Assembly: GCA_030770425.1 (NCBI GenBank)
Contig: JASJFT010000093.1
Span: 107,973 to 171,972, forward strand
Length of the DNA: 64,000 nucleotides
Reading direction: 5' to 3'
DNA from: Darksidea phi
Taxonomy: Eukaryota > Ascomycota > Dothideomycetes > Pleosporales > Lentitheciaceae
Below the pieces are notes generated by a model. It was not told the DNA's origin. It made no database searches and was given only the letters and a program-made list of their open reading frames with translations. Both the position numbers and the translations under genes were made by a program. Positions 32,255 through 60,043 of the stretch are shown piece after piece (position 1 is the stretch's first letter; each line of letters opens with the position of its first letter).

Positions 32255-33145
32255 CTAAGCAAACGGCCACCCCACAAGCCCATATTCTAAAAGACCCTTC
32301 TCGATCTCGTCCTTCCTCGTCTTTAACTCTTCAACATCCCAATTAGCCCACACGAACTTCCCCTTCAAAAACACTGCCTCTGGACTAGCCAGCCACACAC
32401 AAAAGGCTCCCGATAACTCCACGTCATCAACCATTTTCAGTAATTCCTTCTGCTTTTCCGTAAAGTCTGCTTCATTTCCACTGAAGCCAGCCTCCTTGGC
32501 CATGTCAGTCATCACTATGCCCGGCTGCACATTGTAGATGGTTAGGTTGGGATGCTCGTGAGCTAATGCGTTGAAAAACCGCATGATAGCGGCTTTAGAG
32601 ACAAGGTAGGAGGAGTCTCCGCCATCCAAGTTGAGGTGGATTACGGCAGAGGAGACGTTAATTAGGATAGCATCAGGTGCAGCGTAGCGAACAAAGGATT
32701 GAGCCACTGTAATGGAGCCTTTGATGTTACTCTCGATACCCGAGAACCATTTGTCGACATCTGCCTCTTTGATGGGCGACCGGAGTCCGAAGGTACCTGC
32801 ATTACTGACAAGAACATTGATCAGGCCGTTCTCGGAGAACTTGGCAAATGCGGCGTCGATATCGATTTTCTTTGTGAAGTCGGCGGAAGCGTAAGAAATG
32901 CTGACGTTTGGGAAGTCCGTTTCGATGGATGCTTTAGTCGAACGGAGGGGTGCTTCTCTGCGGGCGATTATGAGGATCCTGGATGCCCCTGCTTTGGCGA
33001 AGGAGCGGGCAATCTCTGCTCCAATACCAGTACCACCGCCAGTGATGACAATGCTTTTACCCTTAGCTGAGAGTTCAGGACGGGTTGGATCAATGGCTGG
33101 GTAGGGTTTGTGGTGATAGGTCGCAGTTGGGGCGGGCATGGACAT
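32255..33145 (-). CDS. Short-chain dehydrogenase/reductase (classical SDR)
   Basis: Single exon, 296 residues. The Rossmann cofactor motif TGGGTGIG is at 35-42, the NAG motif at 115-117, the catalytic Ser near 165-166 and the Y-x-x-x-K pair at Y180/K184 (SSYLVSKAA). The IYNVQPGIVMTDM segment after strand 6 is also typical. The enzyme should oxidise or reduce a small alcohol or carbonyl with NAD(P)(H). An Arg-rich stretch after strand 2 (IIARREAPLR) suggests NADPH preference, but this is inference. Fungal relatives are often annotated as peroxisomal short-chain alcohol dehydrogenase-like, with unknown substrate. It is divergent from a zinc-cluster regulator, which might control it. Confidence 0.92.
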   Translation of the reverse strand: MSMPAPTATYHHKPYPAIDPTRPELSAKGKSIVITGGGTGIGAEIARSFAKAGASRILIIARREAPLRSTKASIETDFPNVSISYASADFTKKIDIDAAFAKFSENGLINVLVSNAGTFGLRSPIKEADVDKWFSGIESNIKGSITVAQSFVRYAAPDAILINVSSAVIHLNLDGGDSSYLVSKAAIMRFFNALAHEHPNLTIYNVQPGIVMTDMAKEAGFSGNEADFTEKQKELLKMVDDVELSGAFCVWLASPEAVFLKGKFVWANWDVEELKTRKDEIEKGLLEYGLVGWPFA

Positions 33146-33534
33146 TATGATTGTTTTAGGGAAATCTCAAAGAAGAGAAGATTGACTCTTAGACAGTGTT
33201 TCGTATGTTGGGATATGAGGCGATGGGGAGTCTTGCTTGGTCGCTTGATCTCTATTCAGTCCAGCACTCAATTGTACATATATACTATCCTAAGCTTACT
33301 AGCAAAATTGAAGCGCTCCGATGCAGTTGATAGGAAGGATCCGTACACAGGTAGTCGGAGCAGTATCATGAACAGTTACTTCCCAATGGGGCTTAGTGTA
33401 GCTACAAACTGTCCCGTCCCGACGGATACTTACTCATCCAAGCTGACAAATAACAGTTATCTGACGCTGACGAATTGACATTTATAACTCTTTTTCTGAC
33501 ATTGTACACCCGTCACGGAACGGTCAAATTTACA
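33146..33534. promoter_or_regulatory. Shared divergent promoter, SDR / zinc-cluster regulator
   Basis: 389 bases lie between the two start codons. A regulator next to and divergent from an enzyme is a common arrangement for pathway-specific control, though nothing here proves it. I did not find a clear inverted CGG pair. Confidence 0.4.
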
Positions 33535-35172
33535 ATGGAGAACGGCGACCAAATACTGATTCTGCGATGCGAGCGGTGCAACAAGCCGTTTGACAGAGGT
33601 ACGGATAGCTCCTACCAGCAGTATATCGAAGACTAATCATGTATCGTTTTAGAGGCTTCGCTAAAAAGACATGGATACTATTGCCGTTCACGACGAGGAG
33701 AAAAGCGACTGGCTTTACCTCGATCTTGCGTATCATGTGCCAGGGCAAAGGTTCGCTGCGATAAACTTGCGCCAAAATGCTCGAAATGCGTAGCGAAGAA
33801 TATTGACTGCCGTTACCCATCAAACAGTAGCTCAGGTCGCGAATCCAAGACTCAGCAGACCCGACTGGAGAATGATGCGCCGACGGTTCTAACAGAGGCT
33901 TTGAATTGTTTGGAACTTGACACGCTCATAAATCCACAGTCTACTGAAGGACTGCGCACTGAAGGGCTGTGCACTGAAGGACCGTGCACCGAAGTACTAG
34001 AGCCCGAAATTGCCAACAATACGACCAATGACCTTGCTCCTCCAGACTCAGCAGGCGAAACATTTGCCTTGGACTTCTCAAACATCGGTCCCGCGGGCTG
34101 TTCTACGGACTGTCTCCTCTTCAATAATGCCCAGATCATGCCATCCACCAATCTAGACTCCTCACCAACTTCTACAAGAGTTGAAGGCACTTCATTGCAG
34201 AGTTCGGTTACCGAAGTTCAGCTCACGACCTACGCACCCATCGCTAGCGCCAACGCCCGAATCCCTCAATCCCTAGGCTTCAACCCGCGCGCCATGTGGA
34301 CTCGGCCAAAGCCAAAAATCGGATCCCAGGTCATAGCCAACCAAATAGCACGTATCCTAAGTTCATACCCAAAGATGATGCTAAACCACGGCGCGCTTCC
34401 ACCATTCATCCACCCGCAGTGGATCTCTTCAACTGGCTCTGAAACGTTCTTTGAGCCTCTCGCAAACTGCATGAGCCTGTTGGGTATGCTTGGTGTTGGC
34501 CCTAGGGGAAATGCGAGCCTCTTCTGGCGGAACGTAAGAATGGAATGCGATCGTCTCTCATCTACTCGTGACATGCTCAGCAAGCACGGCGTCCTCGCCG
34601 CAGTTCAAGCCCTTCTTCTGTACCTACTCATTAGATTGGCTGAGGGAGAAACACAACACAACAACCATGACACTGTACTCCTCGGTACATTGACCATGAT
34701 GCTAAACGAAATGGAGAAGAAACTCCAGTGCATGGCACTCAAGTTCCAACCTTTCGAGCTCGTCCATCATGAGGATAGTTGGAGCAACTGGATTTTTGAG
34801 GAGAGCAGACGCAAGACGGCGACTTTGCTTCGCATTATCAACATGCTGGTTTCTGTGGAGCCGGTGACTTTTTGTGCAATGCATCCTGGCCTCCTTCTTG
34901 CTCCTCTTCCTGCTCGAAAACAACTCTGGGAGGCTGGGAGCGAGGAACAGTGGCTAGATGAAGTTCGGAAGACAAGAGCCATAAACAATGGATTTGGACT
35001 TGCGGTCAATGGCGACGTGGTAGCGATGGATGAATATAGAATGAAGTTGCTAAGCAGACAATCAGTCGAGCCTTGGACGAGTTCGCGGAGCACGGAAAAT
35101 TGGGAGGAATGGTGTGCGGGCATGGATGAGTTTGGAGGACTAATTTTGATGACTGCTTCACTATCTACATGA
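33535..35172 (+). CDS. Transcription factor with C2H2-type and Zn2Cys6 DNA-binding domains
   Basis: Two exons (33535-33598 and 33653-35172) give 527 residues. The intron splits the first finger, and splicing yields CERCNKPFDREASLKRHGYYC, a C2H2-type finger with Cys as last ligand (C12, C15, H28, C32). A full Zn2Cys6 cluster follows, CVSCARAKVRCDKLAPKCSKC with the sixth Cys at 74. Fungal regulators with both domains are a known minority class. The middle has a short tandem repeat (TEGLRTEGLCTEGPCTEV). The C-terminal half is helical, without recognisable motifs beyond the usual fungal regulator type. Without splicing the Cys6 frame has no ATG. It is probably nuclear, and its target is unknown. 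Confidence 0.9.
33943..34002 (+). repeat. Short tandem repeat in the regulator (15-bp unit)
   Basis: About four imperfect copies of a 15-base unit (actgaaggrctgtgc-like) encode TEGLR, TEGLC, TEGPC and TEV. The number of copies could vary between strains. It lies between the DNA-binding region and the helical half, in a linker. Confidence 0.6.
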
Positions 35173-37109: not shown

Positions 37110-38200
37110 TCAAAAGTTGGTGCCCATATGCGCACTCCTACTCATAAAAGCTCGCTGCGCAAAATCTCCCTGGGGCTTACTAACTGTCCTTATCGGTAAT
37201 GGTACTCCACCATCGTAATGTTGTTCAGACCATTCCGAAGGATATATGTTCCCGAAACGATCGGTTGTGTACGTCGCTTCCACCGCTGGTAGTGATGTAG
37301 GTTGAAAGTGGGCCGCAAATCTATTTCGGTGCCGATGAACTAAAAAGATAGCCATGCCGATAGCAATAGCTAGTGCACCTATGCTGCCGCCAGTGGCACC
37401 CGCAACCTGTGCCGTACTCAACCGGGGTTTGCCGTCGGGTTCTGTCGTTGGTGGTACATAAGTCGTGCTTGTGAAAGTAGGGTCAGCCGTTACACTCGCA
37501 GAGGCTTGCAAAGGCCCTGTGGTCCTTTGAGAAGAAGCCGACGTCGAATTTGGCCATGGCTGCGGCTGCGGCTGTGGGGAACGGGTGGGCGGTTCTGTGG
37601 TTTTGGACGCTTGTGCGCCTGTAGATATGGAGGTTTGAAGGGTCCTGCTCATCGTAACTGGCTCACTAGCCTCAGATGTCTTATTATCTCGGCTTTCGGC
37701 GGTCTTTTCATGTTTGCTATTAGTCGTTTTTCCCTCGCCACTCTCAGTGGTCGACTCCTCATTTATGTTCCTGCTTTCTAAGATACTTGTCAAAATCCCC
37801 ATCTATCCTCAAAGGTGGACATGTGACAGCGTTACACTCATTCTTGAAGGCGTCGATGAATTCTATATCAGTGTAAGTTAGTAAGTCGCGAACCTCGACC
37901 CGTATGTCTACTATAGCGATCCTCATCCCCTGAGCAATCATGTAGCAAACAGTCGCTGTGTTTACCGAAGCACTCCTCAGTGCCGTCGCGTATGCATACC
38001 TCACGGAAGTTGGTGAGGCATACTCCTCTTACGTCTCCCTCTCTCCAGCAATCATCCTACTCTTGATGTTAGTTTTCCCTTAGCCAAGTTTAGCTTACTT
38101 ACCGTGCATCGAGGAAGTGGAAGGGAATCTCGAGAATTTTTGCAAGTGCGCACAAAATTTGTAGCTGTGACTAAAAGCGCAAAAGTACCGTAGAGCGCAT
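37110..38200 (-). pseudogene. Cys-rich single-pass membrane protein, family copy B, frameshifted
   Basis: Paralogue of the intact gene at 38615-39768. Exon 1 (38200-38103) encodes a signal peptide but needs one extra base in a T run near 38181 to stay in frame with TCKNSRDSLPLPRC. A phase-0 intron follows (38102-38057). Exon 2 (38056-37912) encodes DDCWREGDVRGVCLTNFREV and ends HDCSGDEDRY, matching the relative's HVCLDNLRGICQ and KDCKEDKDRF. A phase-1 intron (37911-37863) is shared. Exon 3 encodes FIDAFKNECNAV and DFDKYL, then runs into TGA at 37758-37760. A Ser/Thr-rich stalk, a membrane segment (GGSIGALAIAIGMAIFLV) and a tail to 37110 continue in another frame. Two frame changes make it likely non-functional, unless a further intron near 37785 is used. 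Confidence 0.6.
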
Positions 38201-38614: not shown

Positions 38615-39768
38615 TCAATAGCGCCTATCGTCAGCTCTATCGTTCTTGTGCAAGCAGGTTGGATGTACAGTTTGACTATCAAGCTCGCTTACTACCGGAC
38701 CCTCAAGCTCACAAAGTCCCCGACTTCCCAGTACACTGGCTTCAGGAGCGCTCATCCAAGCGACCTGCGAGCCATCGAGCTCGTTGATGCCGGATGGTAA
38801 TTTCGATACGCTTTCATGCAAGGGTATCGTGCGATATTGTGGTAAGAAATTTTGTCCATCATACTGTGGCTTATCATTCGCACCTGGAACTGCAGAAGAC
38901 GGTTCTTCTTCCAAAAGAGTCGCCACACGTCTCCGTCGACATATGGCAAAGTATGTCATGCCGACAGCAATTGCCAGTGCGCCAACTCCACCCACAACTG
39001 TGCATACCGTTCTCGTTGTGCTCAATCCGTTCTTCTTGCCCGACTTGGATGCTTGATGTGGAGTACTTGCTTCGGTGGTCGTGGTAGATTCTCTGTTGGT
39101 GCTCGTTGGAAATGTGGGTGGAAATTGTTGAGGAGGCGAGGCTATCGTCGCAGTAAGACCATTGAGAGAGGGCTGAGCGGAGTGCGGTAATTGAGAAGGA
39201 GGCGAGCTTGGCGAGCCTGGATCTAGCTGCGATATCGAAGCTGGCATTTGGGAGTCGGTCAAACTTCGGAATGTTGTTGGAGTTGGATTGATGGTGCTTT
39301 TGGTGGCGGTTTCAAGATATTTTCCGAAGCCACCAGGTATACTACTGACCGTTCGTCCCACTGAAGAACATTCGCGCTTTAGCATCTCGACGAGCTCTAG
39401 AAAAGGTCAAAAGATGTAGACTTCAGGGTCAAGGAAATGTCTGACCAAAGCGATCCTTGTCTTCCTTACAATCCTTGAGCAGACTGTCGCCGTATCCATT
39501 CTGTGGTCCAAAAAACTTCTCGATACCGTTGGCGAGCTGGCATATGCCTCGGAGATTATCAAGGCACACATGATCAATCATTTCATCGTTGAAAGTACGT
39601 GACTTGCACTCCGATTAACACTAATTATCATAAAATGGAATTTGAAGTTCATACCATGCATGGAGGCAAGTGCAGAGGATGATTCGCCTCTGCACAATCG
39701 CGGGCGGCGAAAACAACTGCTATCAGGAGTAGAAAGATGAGCATGGCTTTTGAGATCGAAGAAATCAT
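38615..39768 (-). CDS. Cys-rich single-pass membrane protein, family copy C (intact)
   Basis: Three exons (39768-39655, 39608-39446, 39396-38615) give 352 residues, with phase-0 and phase-1 introns. A signal peptide (AMLIFLLLIAVVFAA) leads a small ectodomain with cysteines in DCAEANHPLHLPPCM, CKSRTF, HVCLDNLRGICQ, LLKDCKEDKDRF and KRECSSVG. Then come a long Ser/Thr/Pro-rich stalk, one membrane segment (TVVGGVGALAIAVGMTYFAI) with a CRRRR stop-transfer, and a cytosolic tail of about 95 residues. This is the layout of fungal cell-surface sensors or anchored wall proteins, with the N-terminus outside. I do not recognise the ectodomain family: it is not a clear CFEM or WSC pattern. Copies B and D lie on either side. 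Confidence 0.75.
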
Positions 39769-41096: not shown

Positions 41097-43765
41097 CGTG
41101 CGAGATTGATTGAAGAGATTGGTCTAGCAAAGAGGGACCCGTGGAAAGCATGACAGTGAGAACCCACATCTGAATACTTAATAAAAAGATTTTTTTAATG
41201 AGAGCATATTCTCCCGTCGAAAGTGACCAAATATTAGCCACGGTCCTTCCCAACACGTCTGGAAGGCATCACAAGCCGGGTGGGTATACATTGGGCGCAA
41301 AATCAGCGCAAATAGGTGGGTCTTTTGTGCATCTCTGTCACAAACCACCATCGGAATCGGGGTTGCGTTTGGAACGTGACTAGACACTCTGCCCTATCAT
41401 ACGGATGACCGGAATTCTCATTCGAGCATCCAGCGGACAAATTTTGCTGCCCCCTTCACTTTAGGGGAAACGATTTGGAAACGCGCTTTCTAGACAGGAG
41501 CGTTTTCTTTCTACAAGTTTAGATGTTTCCCAAAAAAGCACAGGACATCTGAAGAACCGTAATTGCTATGGCTGCGTTACTTTTCGCTTGCGACGATTTC
41601 GTCATTGACGCAACTCACCGCGCATTCTAAAAGCTCTACATCGAAGTCCTGAGCATTCCAATCAAGCACATAACCAAGCAGCAGGAAGACAGTGGGTGCT
41701 GGAAGCAAAATTGGTGTCATCCATGGGTTTACCCGGAGGACGTGAGACGTGAGCGTTATTGAAGAAGTCCGGAAGTGTACAAGGTGGACGGCAACCATTC
41801 TTGCTCTGGCGATCGAGCGTACAAACAGAGTTGCCTACTTTTTCAATGCAGAAAATACGTTGGTTCACCCCGTGTCACGCCGTTCTAAAGTGTCGCAATA
41901 AACCGGCTTCACGACAAGCACGGCGTATCGTGTAACTCCACACAACATCAACACACCACCGTTGCGCTACAGTCCAGTCAGGACCTAGGTCTGAGGAACA
42001 GTACCTACCAGGTTGCTGAGCCAAGGATGGTCATCATTGGCTCTACATACTACACGTGCAATCCCAATTCTCGTGCACTGACTCAGGCGTTGTAGCCTCC
42101 TTCCTCAGCTGCTCAATCCTCGCAGTAATGCCATCGGAATGCAAGGAATCTGCCAGAATGGCAGTATGTTTTATTGTCTCTTCATTTTACTTCCATATCT
42201 TGTATAGAAGATAGCCACACGAAGAGATGAGAGGAAAGCAAGAGTGCTTTATACCGCACCACAAACCGGTAACTGGAGCCGCGAGACAGTCTGTATGAGC
42301 GACGCAGTCGCGATCGAAGTAATAGAAAGACTTTTCAATCTCATAGCGACATCAAAATATATAATGTTGGGTGAACGCAAAGAGGGTTCATTCGAAAAAT
42401 GACAGCGCGTTACGCTTCACGCTGTGATAGCTTTGATCTTGCCGCACCTGAAGACTAGCGTGCGAGTTGCCACTTAGAGCTTATCATGCGCAAAATACCA
42501 AGCCACGTTCTAGATCTTCGGGATTCGGCCACCCCATACTGACTCGCCTTTCAAGCCATGCTCACTCCAACAAAACCGTGTGCGCATCTTTGACTTGCTC
42601 GTGCCGAAAACTTCTAGTAAACATGTATCGCACACACTTCGTCTCTAGCTAAGTGTCGCGCGTTGCTGAGTTCGACGCCCAGTTCGATATTGGCGAGTGT
42701 GGAGAGCACAAAGGAACCTGTTCGTTATAGTTAAAATGCTACGCTTGTTCAACAACTTGTTGCTCTCCATGTGATAGTCTGGTCACCGGCGCCAGGCAAT
42801 TTCAGAGTTTATGCGCGCTTCTATGGTGAGTGCTCGCTCACATCAGTGCGCACGACTTGTAACGTTAACATTACCTGGTGCAAGCAACACCGGCAACTAT
42901 TGCCGGTTCACCCTGCTTATGTAAAGCCCCAACGCATTCAAAGATTGTCCATGCCTTTTCGATACGCGCACATTTGACTCTTCTTTAACGCGTTTGAATT
43001 GAACGGATCAGGGACTCTACAAATCCGCAATTGGGCGTTCGCGATTATTTGCTTCGTCTTCTCTCTATCACTGTTATAGAACGTTTTTTGCTAAAGCTAC
43101 GAGGCGTACCATGTCGATAGTATGCGCGCGCGAGGATGCGAGCTGTCGGACCGAACTCCTGCGTCGCCTCGCCTATTCCCGGCCAGTTCCTCCGTGACGT
43201 TTGACAACTACGACACCAGTGGCTTGGCACCGTTGTTGACCGATCCGGCCATCTCCAATGGGACTTGGGGTGGGCAGTTGCACACTCCGTAGAACTTTGT
43301 ACAGGACTGTCCTGAGAGATTTAACGAAGATTGCTCCGGCAACACGGGCACTGGCACTTTGGAGAACATTTTTCCGTTTGGGCCCCTTATTTCTGATTGA
43401 ACGGCCATGCGCATCATACGGCCAAGCTTTATGGGGCTCAGGTTTGGCGCCTCACCCGATGGAGTAGGAGTATAGAATAAACAATTCCTACTTGGAGTTA
43501 GCGGCAGCCTCGTGAAAACCAGCTCAACGCTGCATGTCCAGCATTTCGATACGGTTCGTATATGCGAATTATTCCGAAATTCAGGCGCGAAACAGTTAGG
43601 ACAGCGCCTCTGTGTTAGATTTTTTGGCAGGTTTCAAAACTGCAGATATATACTCGAGATCCATCTCCGACGATATCAAATCCTCAGGCTCACAACTCCA
43701 CTTCTTCTATTCGCCCTCAACCCGATCTTCGAAGCACTCCCTTAACTTGCCATTAATCTTTCAAA
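41097..43765. other. Gene-poor interval upstream of the peptide precursor
   Basis: About 2.7 kb without a gene I can support. Minus-strand frames at 41577-41868 and 43208-43417 contain several Cys (for example GCRPPCTLPDFF and SCTKFYGVCNCPP) and could be relics of small secreted proteins, but neither has a signal peptide or consistent splicing. The last ~180 bases before 43766 are C/T-rich and look like a leader. Confidence 0.35.
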
Positions 43766-44611
43766 ATGCTCTGGAAGCGATCGTTTATTTTGGCCGCCGT
43801 CCTGGCTTCGCCCGCCTTCTCGGCCCCTGCACCCCAGAGAAAGGTCCCTGAATCCCAACAACTCAATTGCACACCGAACAACCAGGGTGTGGATGTCTGC
43901 TGCGATCAGTTCGGTGGCTGCATCTTGCGCGGTGGTAGGCTCATATTTTATGTTTGTATTATGTGGCCATGACAAATTCTAAAACCCTGTAGATCTGAGC
44001 CCCCAGTTCGAGGATCGTATTGTCAACAAGAGGGAGGCCGAGCCGCAGGCCCTCAACTGCAACAAGAACAACCAGGGCGTAGATGTGTGCTGCGATCAGT
44101 TCGGTGGCTGCATCTTGCGCGGTGGTAAGCTCATATTCATGTTTGTATTATGTGGCCGTGACAATTCTAAAACCCTGTAGATCTGAGCCCCGAGTTCGAA
44201 GATCGCATCGTGGACAAGAGGGACCCTGAACCGCAGAGGAAGGTCCCCGAATCCCAGCAACTCAATTGCACACCAAACAATCAGGGTGTGGATGTCTGCT
44301 GCGATCAATTTGGTGGCTGTGTTCTCCGCAATGGTAGGTTCAGATTAATATCATGTGATCACGACAAGTTCTAAAACGCTCTATAGATCTGAGTCCCGAA
44401 TTCGAGGATCGCATTGTCAACAAGAGGGAGGCCGAGCCCCAGGCTCTCAACTGCAATAAAAACAACCAAGGTGTTGATGTGTGCTGCGATCAATTTGGTG
44501 GCTGCATTCTCCGCGGTGGTAAGTTCTTCCCTGTGTCTCGTGGCCATGACAAGTTTTAATACCTTTTGTTTAGATTTGAGCCCCGAGTTCGAGGATCGCA
44601 TCCAGAATTAG
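43766..44611 (+). CDS. Secreted precursor of four Kex2-separated Cys-rich peptides
   Basis: Five exons (43766-43934, 43993-44124, 44181-44333, 44387-44518, 44574-44611), all split by phase-1 introns of 53-58 nt, give 207 residues. A signal peptide (RSFILAAVLASPAFSA) is followed by four repeats. Each repeat has NNQGVDVCCDQFGGC preceded by one more Cys, so the spacing is C-x9-C-C-x5-C, and then LSPEFEDRI. Lys-Arg at 69-70, 113-114 and 164-165 separates them, followed by EAEPQ, DPEPQ and EAEPQ. KR-EA is also the arrangement in yeast alpha-factor precursor (Kex2, then dipeptidyl aminopeptidase trimming). Released peptides would be about 42 or 49 residues with two disulfides each. The repeats alternate in type as A-B-A-B: A carries a 7-residue insert (RKVPESQ). 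No frame break. The family and target are not recognised, and no tailoring enzyme gene is adjacent. Confidence 0.88.
43766..44611 (+). repeat. Tandem exon-intron duplication, four copies (A-B-A-B)
   Basis: Exons 1-4 each end at the same place in the repeat (LRG or LRN, then a split Asp codon) and are followed by related introns. Introns 1 and 2 share long stretches including the start tcatatt and the end ctaaaaccctgtag, while introns 3 and 4 are more diverged. The unit of about 190-200 bases was therefore duplicated as DNA, with introns. Exon 3 is closest to exon 1 and exon 4 to exon 2. Confidence 0.85.
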
Positions 44612-47141
44612 TGGACCGGAGAGACTGGGCGGTAGAGATTTGTGAGGTCAAAATTTTTCAGCGTGTGGACACAGGCATTAAGTGTCTATAGTGGCCTGGG
44701 ACTATGTCTAGATAAGAAGGCAGATTTGCCTCGCCCAAGAATGACAGCTACGATTGCTTCTCAATCATGTTCCTCCTGCCGCTGTGAAGTTTGCGCTTCT
44801 TTCTGGTAGTGCTAGCTTAACGATAGGACTATGTTTTATAACCCGCCGATCTCGCTACTTCGATGTGAATAATTCCACGGAATATTATGGACTATGTAGG
44901 GATCATACCTTAAAAGTGGTCCGTTGTAGACTAATCGAAGTTTTAGTCTCGCTACTACTTTACGACTAGAGATACGGCGCGGGGTATATAATACTCGTAT
45001 TACTCTGACACTAGGCTATTGCTAGAGCCAAATCTACGATACTAGCGCTTTGAAGGATCGCGACGGTATATGGGAAGACTATAGGCCACGACATTAAAAC
45101 GGCTGCTAGTGGCCATCGCAAATGGGAGGCTACTCTGAAGAGCAAGGGGACAGACCGATGGAAAAGTATAGCCAGCATTACTATTCACATGGCCAAAGCT
45201 GGATGGACCTAGACGTCAGAATATCATCAAGATGTATGGGAGATCTACATGTTTGATACTAGTAGGTCATTGGTTTCTAGGCATGTGACTGATCAGGGTC
45301 GGTTTTTCCTATGGGTATAATTTCCCTACAACCCATTGAGCCGCCTGACCCATCCGCCCGAGGTGACTGGCGTGATGACTTAGCATTTTGCTCTGTGCCA
45401 CTGGATTGTCGAACACAACGTAGGGCCATTCGTGCCATTCCACACGTCGCAACAAGGTCCCGCAACATACCGCGGGCCACCGGAATTATGGTGTGGACAA
45501 GCAGCTTCCACCGCCAAAACTGGATTTCAATGTATACCGTATGTTCGACCGGTCCGTGAGAGTTCCCTGTCTGACTAATTTGGTTTGGATTTTCATAGTG
45601 GGAGTCTCTTTTGTAAGGTCCGCACGAAACAGTAGGTGCTTGTGCACAATAGAGGTGCTGTACCTATACCTTATACACGATGATAAAGCTATAGAGCTGT
45701 ACACAGTACTATAGATCGTGAGATACCGACGAGGTGATGTTTCGAACATTGACAGGCGGATCATAATGCCGTATAAGCAAGTTCTTTCATGTTTTGGGTG
45801 GTTCAGCTAAGCCTAATATAATTCCAAAACAAGCGCAATGTCTACGTACCTCCCTGGGCTACAAACTCCATGGGTGAAGGGTTCAACATAGGAGAAGGAA
45901 CGTCCAAAGGAGGACTGGATTAGACATAGATGTGAGATGCACAAGATAGGGACAGCGAAGTCTAACCGCTTCGTAACAAATACTACACCCTGTCTCTATA
46001 GCTGTATATAAAAGCGGAGGGCTGTATATACTTATCTCGTAGAAGAGGTAAAGATTACGGCTACTCTATAAGTAGATACGCTACGAATTACTCCTAGCTC
46101 TTAGTTACACCTAAATACGTAATTACATCAAATATGCTACTATTTAATCTACCCCTCTAAAAAAAATTCGAAGGCATGGCGCGGTGGAACCCCTCGTCCG
46201 CGCTAAAGATTGTCGGGATGTAGCTTGCACTGCAATCTTTAGCGCGGACGAGGGGTTCCACCGCGCCAAGCCTTCAAACGTGCCTCGGCACTATAGATTG
46301 TAATCGTGAATTCTCCCGCAGAGACACAATACCGAATACAAATACTGTAGGTGGGCTGGGCCGCTCCCTGCTCTTGGCTTATTCAAATACTATTTTTATG
46401 GATTAATTAGATTAGAATAGAAAGGTATCTTATGGGAGTATGTACAAGGCTATAAGGGACGTTAGATAAAATCGAAATTCGAGGGGATACTGCGGCAAGT
46501 TTTCTTCGGCACGACATTCACCGTTTTCCCGCACTAAGTGTACATAGGATTATGTGGTGGGAATGCGTTAAATTTTGTTTGTCTCTCTTCCTAAAGAATG
46601 AAAAAATCCTCCTTGACCTCAAGGCTTCAGATGTTCTGCTTATCTCTCAAACACAAGGGATCCTAGGCCGTTCGAATTGGTAGGACTCCTCAAAACCGTA
46701 TCTTTCCAGCAAAAGTCCTAGCTCAGAAACACAAAACAGCGCTGTACGCAAGCCCACGGACGAGCGGCAAAGTAGCTCGTCCGACCTACCTTGCTCCAAG
46801 AACAAAGAGTCACCCATTCGTCGCTCCTCCGTACCAGAATGACACAATATAGTACGTTTAAATATCGTAAGCCATAAGCAACAACAGAGCGGGGTCATTG
46901 CGCCTTGCCTTCTACAAATCCCACCTATGAGTTAACATAAGAGAATGCTGTGTAGTACATAGTCCTGCAAAAGCACAAGCAGAGAACAATCTGACAGCTG
47001 TACATCCATCCGCATCTTCGCTATCGTGCACCGCACAGAGACATTGACCCTACTAGCTCCATCACCACAACCCGGTCTATGCTTTAGCATAGTACATTTT
47101 GTATCACTCTTCGCTTCGAACTTATATACAAACACGCAGTG
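44612..47141. other. AT-rich gene-free block
   Basis: About 2.5 kb with high A+T, frequent TA steps and stops in all frames, especially 44780-45110 and 45950-46150. It resembles RIP-mutated repeat relics, but I cannot name the element. A 46-bp inverted repeat lies inside (46167-46278). Short frames at 45311-45714 show no family motif. Confidence 0.5.
46167..46278. repeat. Near-perfect inverted repeat (46-bp arms, 20-nt loop)
   Basis: Left arm 46167-46212 and right arm 46233-46278 pair at 44 of 46 positions, including 36 uninterrupted pairs (46177-46212 with 46233-46268). The loop is 46213-46232. The arms are GC-rich, within an AT-rich block. It could be a foldback/MITE-like element or a recent palindromic duplication, since pairing this exact has not yet decayed. 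Confidence 0.85.
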
Positions 47142-48964
47142 CTATACCACGTACCCATTTCTTATCACCGGCTTTCTCATGCCCTGCTTTGATGGCACAG
47201 CGACCCAGTCCCGTTCATCGAGCGCTTTCTCCAATCCTGTACCCCTCTCCTTCCACCCATTCCCCCTCAACTCCCTGGTCATTAGCCAAGCCGCCTTGAT
47301 ACAATCGTTGACACCAACCCCATGATATAGATTACCCACGACTCGAAGCCTCCCTCTATACTGGTCCCTGATCTTCTGCGCATAGTCTTTCAATCGATCC
47401 TCATACCCTACTGTGTACTGCGGAATACAATCTTCGGAGAGATTGACGTGGGATGCGACGGGTTCGGCGGTAATGCCGAGATGGCGGCGGACGATGGAGC
47501 GCGCGAGTTCGAGGCCTTCTTCTTTGTCTGGGAAGTGCTCCCAGCCGTTCCACCAGTGGCCGCCTAGCATCACGGTGAGTTTGGTGCCTTCCGCAGTGTC
47601 CTGGCCAGTGGTGACGTCCGAGTCGAAGATTACACCTAGAGCACGCTCAGGGTTCTCTTCGAACGGAACGCTTTGTGGGATGAGGTAACCGAAGCCTTGG
47701 ACAGGCAGAAGGACTGACTTGGCGAAGAAGAGGTTTACTGTCATGACGGTGACATAGGGGGCGAGGGACTTGTCGCGGAGCGAGGAGATAACGAGGTCGT
47801 AGGTTCGAGTTGTTTTGTCGGATTCGGTCTGCTTGCAGCGTCAGCCGGATGAGTGCGAATAGTGAGAGGATGCTCTCGACTTACCCCTGTTACGAGTTCG
47901 ACTTTTGGCTCCGCGCCTGCGATGTACTTTAGATCGCCAGCTTTGGTGTTGAACTTGAGTTGGACCCGATCATTCCCTTCGAGCTTCTGCTGCAATGCCT
48001 TGATCATTTCCTGCAGACCGTTCCTAAACGAGAACATGGTACACTCCCCAAGATCGTCGACAAACGTGTCTTCGAGTCTGATGTCCTCCCTCATACCATT
48101 CCATGCATCCGCATCGTATGGATGACACAGCGACACGCGCTGTAGATGGTTGCTCTCCTGATTGATAGTAAGATTACCTCTCCATACACCCCCATACAGG
48201 CCCTCTAACTGCCACGCTTGTGCCAGCAGTGTCCTTGCACTAAGCTGCCACACATCTCCCGCATAGATGCCATGCATGACTGCCGAGACAACATTATTTG
48301 CTATCCGCTTGTCGGCCCGTCGCGCTATGAAGGAACCTATCGATTCATCCATCAAGCCCAACGGCCGCCGTGGCCGCCATGGCTCAAGAAGTGTGTAAGG
48401 TGCGCCGGCCAGCAGACCGCTCCGCACCAGAGGGAAGATAATATCGAAGCTTAGAGGTTCGCCGGGAGAAGGCAGACGATTGAGACGATCGGGGTAGTAC
48501 AGGAAGCGGTTCTTTGCGCCTACCGAGGTGCGTTTGGAATAGAGCACGTTGTCCACGAGACCGAGATCTTGGATCTATAGAGAATCAGCTTGAAAACAGT
48601 GACCAATGCCTTTAACACTCGCCAATTGCGCCGTGGGCAAGCAATTCACCCCCGGTCTCAACGTCCGTGGCCCATACTCGAAGAGCACGTTGCCTCCTGG
48701 AACCTCTACTCGTCTCGACTGTATCCAGCCACCGGTCTCTTTTCCGCTTTCATAGACTGTAATTTTGCTCCGAGGAAATTCCTTCGACACAAAATAAGCA
48801 CTGGCAAGTCCAGAGACACCTCCGCCGAGCACCGCAATATTCTCAGGATACGCAGTGGATGAGGCGTAACGACGACAGTGGACGCATAGAGACGGGGTAG
48901 ACGACCGGCCAAGGACAGATTTCAAGGTCGATTGAAGGAGCGGGACATGACGCCTGAGTCGCAT
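47142..48964 (-). CDS. HEM14: Protoporphyrinogen oxidase (haem biosynthesis)
   Basis: Three exons (48964-48617, 48574-47885, 47831-47142) give about 575 residues. The third exon could also begin at 47828, using a later CAG. The enzyme oxidises protoporphyrinogen IX to protoporphyrin IX in the mitochondrial inner membrane. The N-terminus is basic, as in a mitochondrial targeting peptide. An FAD-binding motif AVLGGGVSGLASAYF lies at about 45-58, followed by VYESGKETGGWIQS and a FEYGPRTLRP block. The C-terminal region includes GGHWWNGWEHFP and VGNLYHGVGVNDCIKAAW, the family's FAD-contacting end. Introns keep phase and restore ASIQDLGLVDNVL. Copper, oxygen or haem control cannot be read from the sequence. 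Confidence 0.93.
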
Positions 48965-58957: not shown

Positions 58958-60043
58958 TCATAGCTCGAGCTCATTCGCTCTTGGCCGCTCATATCTAGAC
59001 TCCCCTTCATCAGTCCCCCAACTCAGAGGTCTACCCCCGAGTCCTCGCATTCCATCATTCGGCATACCAGTCCCCACCGAGGTAGTCGGGTTCATGAACG
59101 CACTGCGGCTTGGTGTATCTCGCTCATACGCATTGTCAAATGGCGCATCGCCGCGGTCAAAGTTATCCCCCGACCGGGGGGTCGTCGCCGTAACCGGGGT
59201 TTCGAGCCCAATATTCGCTGCATTACCGCGTCTGTATGGGTCTTGGGTGGATATTGGTCTTGGTGGTGCAGATGTTGGCTGGACCACGACCTTGTCGCTG
59301 GTGCTCGAACAGCTACGCAGCAAAACGCGTCGGTATTTGAAGCATAATGCTCCTGCAATGAGGCCAACCGCAGCTATCACACCCACAACGATACCTGCTA
59401 TTTCGCCCGGCTTCAATTTATTTGCGGTAGGTTCGGTCGTTGATATTGGCGCTTGGTTTCCAGTGCTCGTTGGCGTCCGCACGGCTGTGTTCAATGTTGA
59501 AGAGCTACTTGTGTACGCGAAAGATGTGCTAGGCGGAACAGTAGATGTTTCGGTATGCCCCAAACCCTCGATGCCAATGATAGTCTGGGCCCTGCCCGGA
59601 TTGAGATGGAAAGCTCCTTTTGCGCAAGAACACTCTGAATCGTCCGCACAGCAGAACCTGTTATCGCCGCAAGCTTTCAGGTCCCCACTGAGATCGCGGT
59701 CAGTCTATGCAGAGTTAGTATTCGTTGGCGCCTCGCCCCGCAGAGCTCTTACCAAGCAGAAGTCTCCGCAAACTGCGTTGTTCCACTCTGGATTTGTACA
59801 GCTTCCGCGAATCGAAGTCCCCAGTGGATGCGATGAATTTGCTGTCGACGGATCAGTCACTACACACATACTATTCGAGTAGCATGTCCATCCTGTTGGA
59901 CAACACGATGTGATATATGCTGTCGGATCGCAGGCGAAGAAGCCAGATGCCGGTATGCCGTTCGGAAGGTAGCAGGGAGCGTCCGCGACTGCATACGCAA
60001 AGTCGAGGACCAAGAGCGTCGACGGCAATAACCAGTGTACCAT
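58958..60043 (-). CDS. Cys-rich single-pass membrane protein (sensor-like)
   Basis: Two exons (60043-59753 and 59704-58958) give 345 residues, with a GTAAGA..CATAG intron in phase. A signal peptide (LLPSTLLVLDFAYAVADA) is followed by a Cys-rich ectodomain: APCYLPNGIPASGFFACDPT, SCCPTGWTCYSNSMC, CGDFCL, ACGDNRFCCADDSECSC. A Ser/Thr-rich stalk, one membrane segment (GEIAGIVVGVIAAVGLIAGA) and a cytosolic Pro/Arg/Asp-rich tail of ~135 residues complete it. The CYLPNG...CC..GWTCY pattern is a recurring fungal ectodomain of unknown ligand. Its cysteine pattern differs from the 37-41 kb family, so it is not simply another copy. The layout suggests a surface sensor or wall-attached protein. Confidence 0.85.

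Follow-up and report, generated by a model that had tools for sequence, protein, structure and literature searches.

A putative Kex2-processed precursor of four similar four-cysteine peptides in Darksidea phi, with relatives in two fungal classes

Results

The peptide gene and its predicted product

The window analyzed here is a 64,000-nucleotide stretch of the Darksidea phi genome, positions 107973-171972 of contig C471 (JASJFT010000093.1); the genome searched alongside it comprises 51.35 Mb in 477 contigs. At 43766-44611 on the + strand of the window lie five exons whose predicted splicing yields a 624-nt coding sequence for a product of 207 aa. The features of the locus are as follows.

43640..43765, + strand: putative promoter and 5' UTR, read from the sequence, with a TATATA stretch, a CT-rich leader and a CAAAATG start context
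43766..43934, + strand: exon 1, encoding the signal peptide, AP-AP and the core of repeat 1
43935..43992, + strand: intron 1, 58 nt, phase 1, GTAGG...TAG, 95% identical to intron 2
43993..44124, + strand: exon 2, encoding the peptide 1 tail, KR-EA-EP and the repeat 2 core; 1-1 symmetric
44125..44180, + strand: intron 2, 56 nt, phase 1
44181..44333, + strand: exon 3, encoding the peptide 2 tail, KR-DP-EP and the repeat 3 core with the QRKVPESQQ linker; 1-1 symmetric
44334..44386, + strand: intron 3, 53 nt, phase 1
44387..44518, + strand: exon 4, encoding the peptide 3 tail, KR-EA-EP and the repeat 4 core; 1-1 symmetric
44519..44573, + strand: intron 4, 55 nt, phase 1
44574..44611, + strand: exon 5, encoding the peptide 4 tail, with the stop codon

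An earlier note on this DNA, made from its letters, had described the frame, splice sites and cysteines as intact, and we found them so: the frame closes at a single terminal stop after 207 aa, the four introns (53-58 nt, all phase 1) begin with GTARG and end with TAG, and the four-cysteine repeats are complete. The introns are 62-95% identical to one another in pairwise comparison, and T/CGAC occurs in them 20-25 nt upstream of the intron end. Exons 2-4, symmetric in phase (1-1), carry one peptide core each, and the frame was preserved in all six exon-skipping combinations computed on them. This exon-per-peptide layout makes exon skipping a possible control on the number of peptides made. A search of the genome for a paralogue of the peptide gene found none, all four matches lying inside the gene itself.

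Examination of the 207-aa product confirmed the arrangement first noticed in the letters, with a predicted signal peptide followed by four C-x9-CC-x5-C repeats, whose LNC starts fall at residues 33, 77, 128 and 172, and with junctions that read KR and then EAEPQ, DPEPQ and EAEPQ in order. Repeats 1 and 3 have a common QRKVPESQQ linker and TPNN, and repeats 2 and 4 a short QA linker and NKNN. There is a KR within the signal peptide at residue 4, and additional RK sites stand at residues 25 and 120, which could also be cut. By hydropathy alone, the N-terminus is hydrophobic (h-region mean 1.9), and downstream of the leader the 19-aa hydropathy peaks at 0.52, with no strongly hydrophobic segment. 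By the -3/-1 rule we take the signal cut to lie, in all likelihood, between S19 and A20, after which the precursor reads AP-AP-Q. Tyrosine is absent from the whole product.

The repeat copies were compared by the Nei-Gojobori method, using our own code on 34-codon copies, giving dS values from 0.50 to saturated, dN from 0.01 to 0.10 and w from 0 to 0.12. The high dS and low dN indicate that the copies are old and that purifying selection has preserved their protein sequence. Given the 95% identity of introns 1 and 2, gene conversion may have contributed as well. An AlphaFold2 model of one repeat (43 aa, ending before the C-terminal tail encoded by the next exon) has three short strands at the core, with pLDDT of ~79-88 over residues 21-43, a mean pLDDT of 71.7 and a pTM of 0.38. 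An NCBIfam search of the precursor gave no meaningful match, and a PDB sequence search gave no match below E 0.5.

Other features of the window were recorded as well. A short-chain dehydrogenase gene (32258-33166, - strand) stands beside, and divergent from, a gene for a Zn2Cys6 transcription factor (33637-35169, + strand). Three Ser/Thr-rich open frames lie on the - strand at 37113-37802, 38618-39406 and 58961-59704, two of them close together; each has a single hydrophobic segment, as judged by eye, and none has a Pfam family over cut-off. The lowest GC of the profiled 36-56 kb (~0.44) is found at 45500-47000, in the interval that separates the peptide gene from an amine-oxidase-type gene (47744-48574). 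A neighboring REV1 gene is most similar to that of Lentithecium fluviatile (82% identity), the next named organisms being Byssothecium (76%) and Massarina (75%), among the best 120 of 2506 hits. Lentithecium belongs to the suborder Massarineae of the Pleosporales, which makes membership of that group probable for the fungus studied here.

Relatives share a nearly invariant core

The earlier note had asked for the core to be compared with other proteins. A profile search with 7998 scored candidates returned 11 relatives, five of which had also come from a single-protein search (475 candidates, E up to 10), and the peptide is therefore not an orphan. The family nonetheless looks patchy, at 11 relatives among 7998 scored candidates in a search that requires shared 5-residue words. 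Among the relatives are four from Pleosporales and one from Hypocreales (Ilyonectria). The named sources are, in the Dothideomycetes, Phaeosphaeriaceae sp. PMI808, Exserohilum turcicum, Periconia macrospinosa and P. digitata (PMI808 and P. digitata being placed by name) and, in the Sordariomycetes, Ilyonectria destructans; we take these fungi to be plant- or root-associated.

Across the window's precursor and its relatives there are 22 complete repeat units, a count that excludes the initial truncated repeat of P0008, which lacks the first cysteine. The core octet reads CCDQFGGC in 20 units and CCDEFGGC or CCDESGGC in the other two, and the loop from the first cysteine to the CC pair spans nine residues in 15 units, four in six and five in one. 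The silent-dominated divergence between copies, together with a core common to 11 relatives, places the repeat pattern beyond chance.

One of the 11 relatives has three or more complete repeats, the other ten having fewer. P0001 (Phaeosphaeriaceae sp. PMI808), P0002 (Exserohilum turcicum), P0004 (Ilyonectria destructans) and P0006 and P0007 (Periconia) have the same core and KR/RR-X-A or -X-P junctions, with two complete repeats each versus four in the window gene; their source names are hypothetical, unnamed or uncharacterized, or 'Hydrophobin'. The core of P0002, P0005, P0008, P0010 and P0011 runs on into -GK-, resembling the donor GGTAAG. P0008 continues in frame to the next DLSPEF, and P0010 continues to RSETRIRGS, which is similar to the out-of-frame reading of DLSPEFEDRI in the window (RSESRIRGSH). 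In these five the gene model seems to extend into the following intron, and from the proteins we infer that the intron position is common to the peptide gene and these relatives. Such run-on models suggest that the family is under-annotated or misannotated in public data.

A conserved processing register follows the dibasic sites

Thirteen of the 22 repeats have an upstream KR or RR, and in 12 of these X-Ala or X-Pro comes next, against a background in which A and P make up 13% of residues in the family proteins; the sole exception is repeat 1 of P0003. Most of the nine repeats in which an upstream KR/RR is absent are the first after the signal peptide or belong to incomplete models. In the window precursor, X-A or X-P directly follows the predicted Kex2 site at all three internal positions. 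Such dipeptides are the STE13 signature of precursors of the alpha-factor type. The dipeptides themselves vary across the family (EA-EP, DP-EP, AP-EP, AP-VP, SP-SA, EP-QA, EP-TA, IP) while the X-A/X-P rule is kept, and the register holds in the divergent Periconia forms too. The likeness of the KR-EA junction to yeast alpha-factor, drawn in the earlier note, is thus apt. The genome has one P_proprotein match (Kex2-type) and four DPPIV_N matches.

It might be argued that the precursor stays uncut, as a four-domain cysteine-rich secreted protein whose KR sites, which fall in linkers, are possibly simple spacers. The family pattern makes this an unlikely account, because the dibasic site and the X-A/X-P rule are retained while the dipeptides change (EA-EP, DP-EP, AP-VP, SP-SA, EP-QA), as trimming would demand. 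A Kex2-type protease gene in the same genome also speaks for cutting.

The predicted trimming would leave QRKVPESQQLNC from the long-linker copies, and QALNC from the short-linker copies, or LNC if QA is lost before Gln cyclizes. For peptides of Kex2-processed repeat proteins (KEPs), mass spectrometry has shown STE13-type trimming when they were produced in Pichia, and pyro-Gln ends both there and in Coprinopsis (PMC9769878). When complete ("greedy") trimming was carried out in silico, Gln was left first in just 4 of 13 cases, so that pyro-Glu ends would be no general rule in this family.

KEPs are recognized by a signal peptide and at least three similar repeats between KR, RR or KK, each of 8-100 aa, with the repeats making up at least 15% of the length (PMC6339444, PMC7329392). 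We applied these criteria by hand rather than via the published pipelines. Judged from hydropathy alone, the precursor begins with a signal peptide and has no membrane segment after it. Its four fragments, 42-51 aa long when KR is included in the first three, cover ~81% of its length; exactly three fragments are left without the C-terminal one, which one KEP pipeline initially sets aside (PMC6339444). With KR removed, the fragments are of about 42 and 49 residues, the sizes given in the earlier note, and its reading of a Kex2-processed precursor gains support from the fit to the published sequence criteria, with cleavage itself a prediction.

The predicted peptides are acidic and carry no recognized domain

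The mature peptides are predicted to be hydrophilic and acidic, with pI values of 4.2-4.5, net charges of -2 to -4 and GRAVY values of -0.41 to -0.73. These values bear on two possible roles. As small, secreted-type, four-cysteine peptides made in several copies, they could be antimicrobials directed against competitors. Antimicrobial peptides are usually cationic, however, whereas all four window peptides are acidic, and the core hardly varies across two fungal classes; we regard an antimicrobial role as quite improbable.

Alternatively, the peptides might coat the hyphal surface in the manner of Rep1 repellents or hydrophobins. Ustilago Rep1 is cut by Kex2 into peptides of 35-53 aa (PMC4617103), a similar size, two successive repeats give the order C-CC-C-C-CC-C, and the UniRef name of P0006 is 'Hydrophobin'. 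Against such a coat stand the hydrophilic and acidic character of the mature peptides and the KR that sits between the repeats. For the 12 proteins (the window's precursor and its 11 relatives), Pfam listed no hydrophobin family with E up to 10, in a search whose HMMER filters drop most weak matches. On balance a surface coat seems unlikely, if slightly less so than an antimicrobial role.

We also considered the possibility that the gene encodes the alpha-type mating pheromone precursor of this fungus. The layout is pheromone-like, with a signal peptide, KR, X-A/X-P dipeptides and repeats, and the genome has a STE2 receptor. The window peptides are, however, far longer than alpha-pheromone and have four cysteines, in a C-x9-CC-x5-C core that corresponds to neither a two-cysteine GQxC-type nor a PYGxPxG-type core. 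Pattern searches of the genome gave no match to PYGxPxG, and the two matches to WCx3GQxC equaled the count in the reversed control, neither being in a pheromone-like frame. Cx3GQPC gave 18 matches versus 6 in the reversed control, and by eye only two of these, 225 bp apart on contig C335, fall in a pheromone-like frame. They belong to a separate candidate:

C335, ~132274-132522, - strand: putative alpha-pheromone precursor, a 132-aa open frame with CRFVGQPC twice and AEPVALPEAE-type repeats

Besides KR, this frame has a leader that is signal-like and spacers rich in AE/EP, and it resembles the two-cysteine pheromone class described in PMC6339444. That the window gene is the mating pheromone precursor is, in our estimate, very improbable.

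A dikaritin- or ustiloxin-type RiPP precursor, with cores cyclized by UstYa (DUF3328), was judged just as improbable. The precursor is KEP-like and the genome has 31 UstYa matches, but none of the 31, among the best candidates scored, is on the contig of the window. The product has no Tyr, which is called mandatory for DUF3328 cyclization in known cases (PMC7329392). A Pfam scan of ten window frames assigned four of them, over cut-off, to dehydrogenase, Zn2Cys6 factor, amine oxidase and Nab2-type zinc-finger families. The earlier note had recognized no match to a fungal pheromone, hydrophobin or cyclic-peptide precursor, and this assessment stands: no Pfam cut-off is reached in the 12 proteins, the fungus has an alpha-pheromone-type gene of its own, and none of the 31 UstYa matches among the best candidates scored lies on this contig.

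In the same Pfam searches, PF20007 (fvmRadSAM-pep) reached E 5.4e-5 with 23.7 bits, below its 27-bit cut-off and with no single stretch passing (E 0.017 in P0004), and was treated as a sum over four repeats rather than as homology.

Resemblance to hevein/CBM18 lies mainly in the octet

Pfam flagged a further resemblance, Chitin_bind_1, below cut-off in 6 of the 12 proteins, the best E being 3.4e-4 in P0006 (Periconia). The core could be a reduced hevein/CBM18 unit with affinity for chitin or some other glycan, for instance as a shield over hyphal chitin. We built a CBM18 profile from 20 of the 21 matches in the fungus's own genome (the last being without a locus); four of the 20 are under the Pfam cut-off and three are cut at a flank stop. 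All 22 repeat units scored 13.1-20.8 bits on this profile, versus means of 4.6-10.2 bits for shuffles with the cysteines fixed, 0-9 of 300 of which reached the real score. The hhalign comparison with CBM18 gave Prob 71 over 20 columns, and the repeat core modeled with AlphaFold2 has three predicted strands.

Other results weigh against this interpretation. CBM18 was tested post hoc, Pfam having flagged the family first, and the PF00187 cut-off of 27.8 bits was unreached, the best score being 21.3 (P0006) and that of the window protein 11.4. Hevein has eight cysteines in four disulfides, and each repeat here has four cysteines, so that half of hevein's are missing. With the five residues that separate CC from the last C masked, the mean score fell from 16.8 to 7.3 bits, and shuffles with the octet fixed equaled or exceeded the real unit score in 5-76 of 200 cases. 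In the reverse test, the real score was reached by at most 2 of ~297 shuffles for two of the 20 CBM18 domains and by 13 to 217 for the other 18. By these comparisons the hevein-like resemblance appears largely confined to CC-x-Q-F-G-x-C, and we consider a chitin- or glycan-binding role unlikely.

Discussion

The gene at 43766-44611 probably encodes a KEP with an alpha-factor-like maturation route. Judged by sequence, its product and the 11 relatives make up a real, conserved family of KEP type, with a predicted alpha-factor-like maturation line, a fixed four-cysteine core and internal exons that each carry one peptide core.

We propose that the precursor would enter the ER, where the four cysteines of each repeat would form disulfides. 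Kex2 would then cut after the three internal Lys-Arg sites, the basic residues would be taken off by Kex1, and the X-Ala/X-Pro dipeptides by a dipeptidyl aminopeptidase of the Ste13 type. Four near-identical acidic peptides would result, each ~38-45 residues long or slightly shorter if QA is also trimmed. Outside the cell they might act as ligands for a conserved partner, the four copies raising the dose of one ligand. Among the roles considered, that of an extracellular ligand, in fungal signaling or biotic interaction, is the best fit to a nearly invariant core, multiple copies and acidic, disulfide-type peptides, and we put it forward tentatively. Knockouts of six Coprinopsis KEPs gave no phenotype (PMC9769878), which counts against this reading.

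A bolder proposal, which we regard as doubtful, is that these peptides are a novel, non-mating, peptide-hormone-like family of filamentous ascomycetes that uses the alpha-factor maturation line. The core would be a minimal four-cysteine mini-sheet that may descend from a hevein unit, and duplication or skipping of the symmetric exons, one peptide to each, would govern dose or variety.

KEP repeat types have been described as mostly unique at genus level (PMC7329392), and most KEP peptides as having no known function (PMC9769878). Here the octet is nearly invariant in Dothideomycetes and Sordariomycetes, so that a single conserved partner could be sought. With fewer than three complete repeats, 10 of the 11 relatives fall outside surveys that demand three (PMC6339444, PMC7329392). 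Among the papers searched, none mentions the octet CCDQFGGC and none is evidently about the four-cysteine family, members of which could sit unnamed in KEP supplementary tables, which lie outside that search. In the main texts of PMC6339444, PMC7329392 and PMC9769878, 'disulfide' has 0 mentions; 'intron' is counted 0, 0 and 1 times, respectively, and 'exon' 0 times in the main text of PMC7329392.

The peptides can be set beside several known systems. With hevein/CBM18 they have in common CC-x5-C with Q, an aromatic residue and G in the loop, and 6 of the 22 units have the spacing C-x4-CC-x5-C. In size the predicted Kex2 products are like the Ustilago Rep1 peptides, which are amphipathic and form fibrils (PMC4617103), whereas the window peptides are acidic and cysteine-bearing. 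Ascomycete alpha-pheromone precursors are alike in layout and in dipeptide trimming, but the core of the window peptides is unrelated. The closest likeness in architecture is to KEPs, which have a signal peptide, at least three similar repeats between KR sites and the STE13 signature after KR (PMC6339444, PMC7329392). Unlike the KEPs described in those sources, the gene would give peptides of 38-45 aa with a fixed four-cysteine pattern, and it devotes one symmetric exon to each internal repeat.
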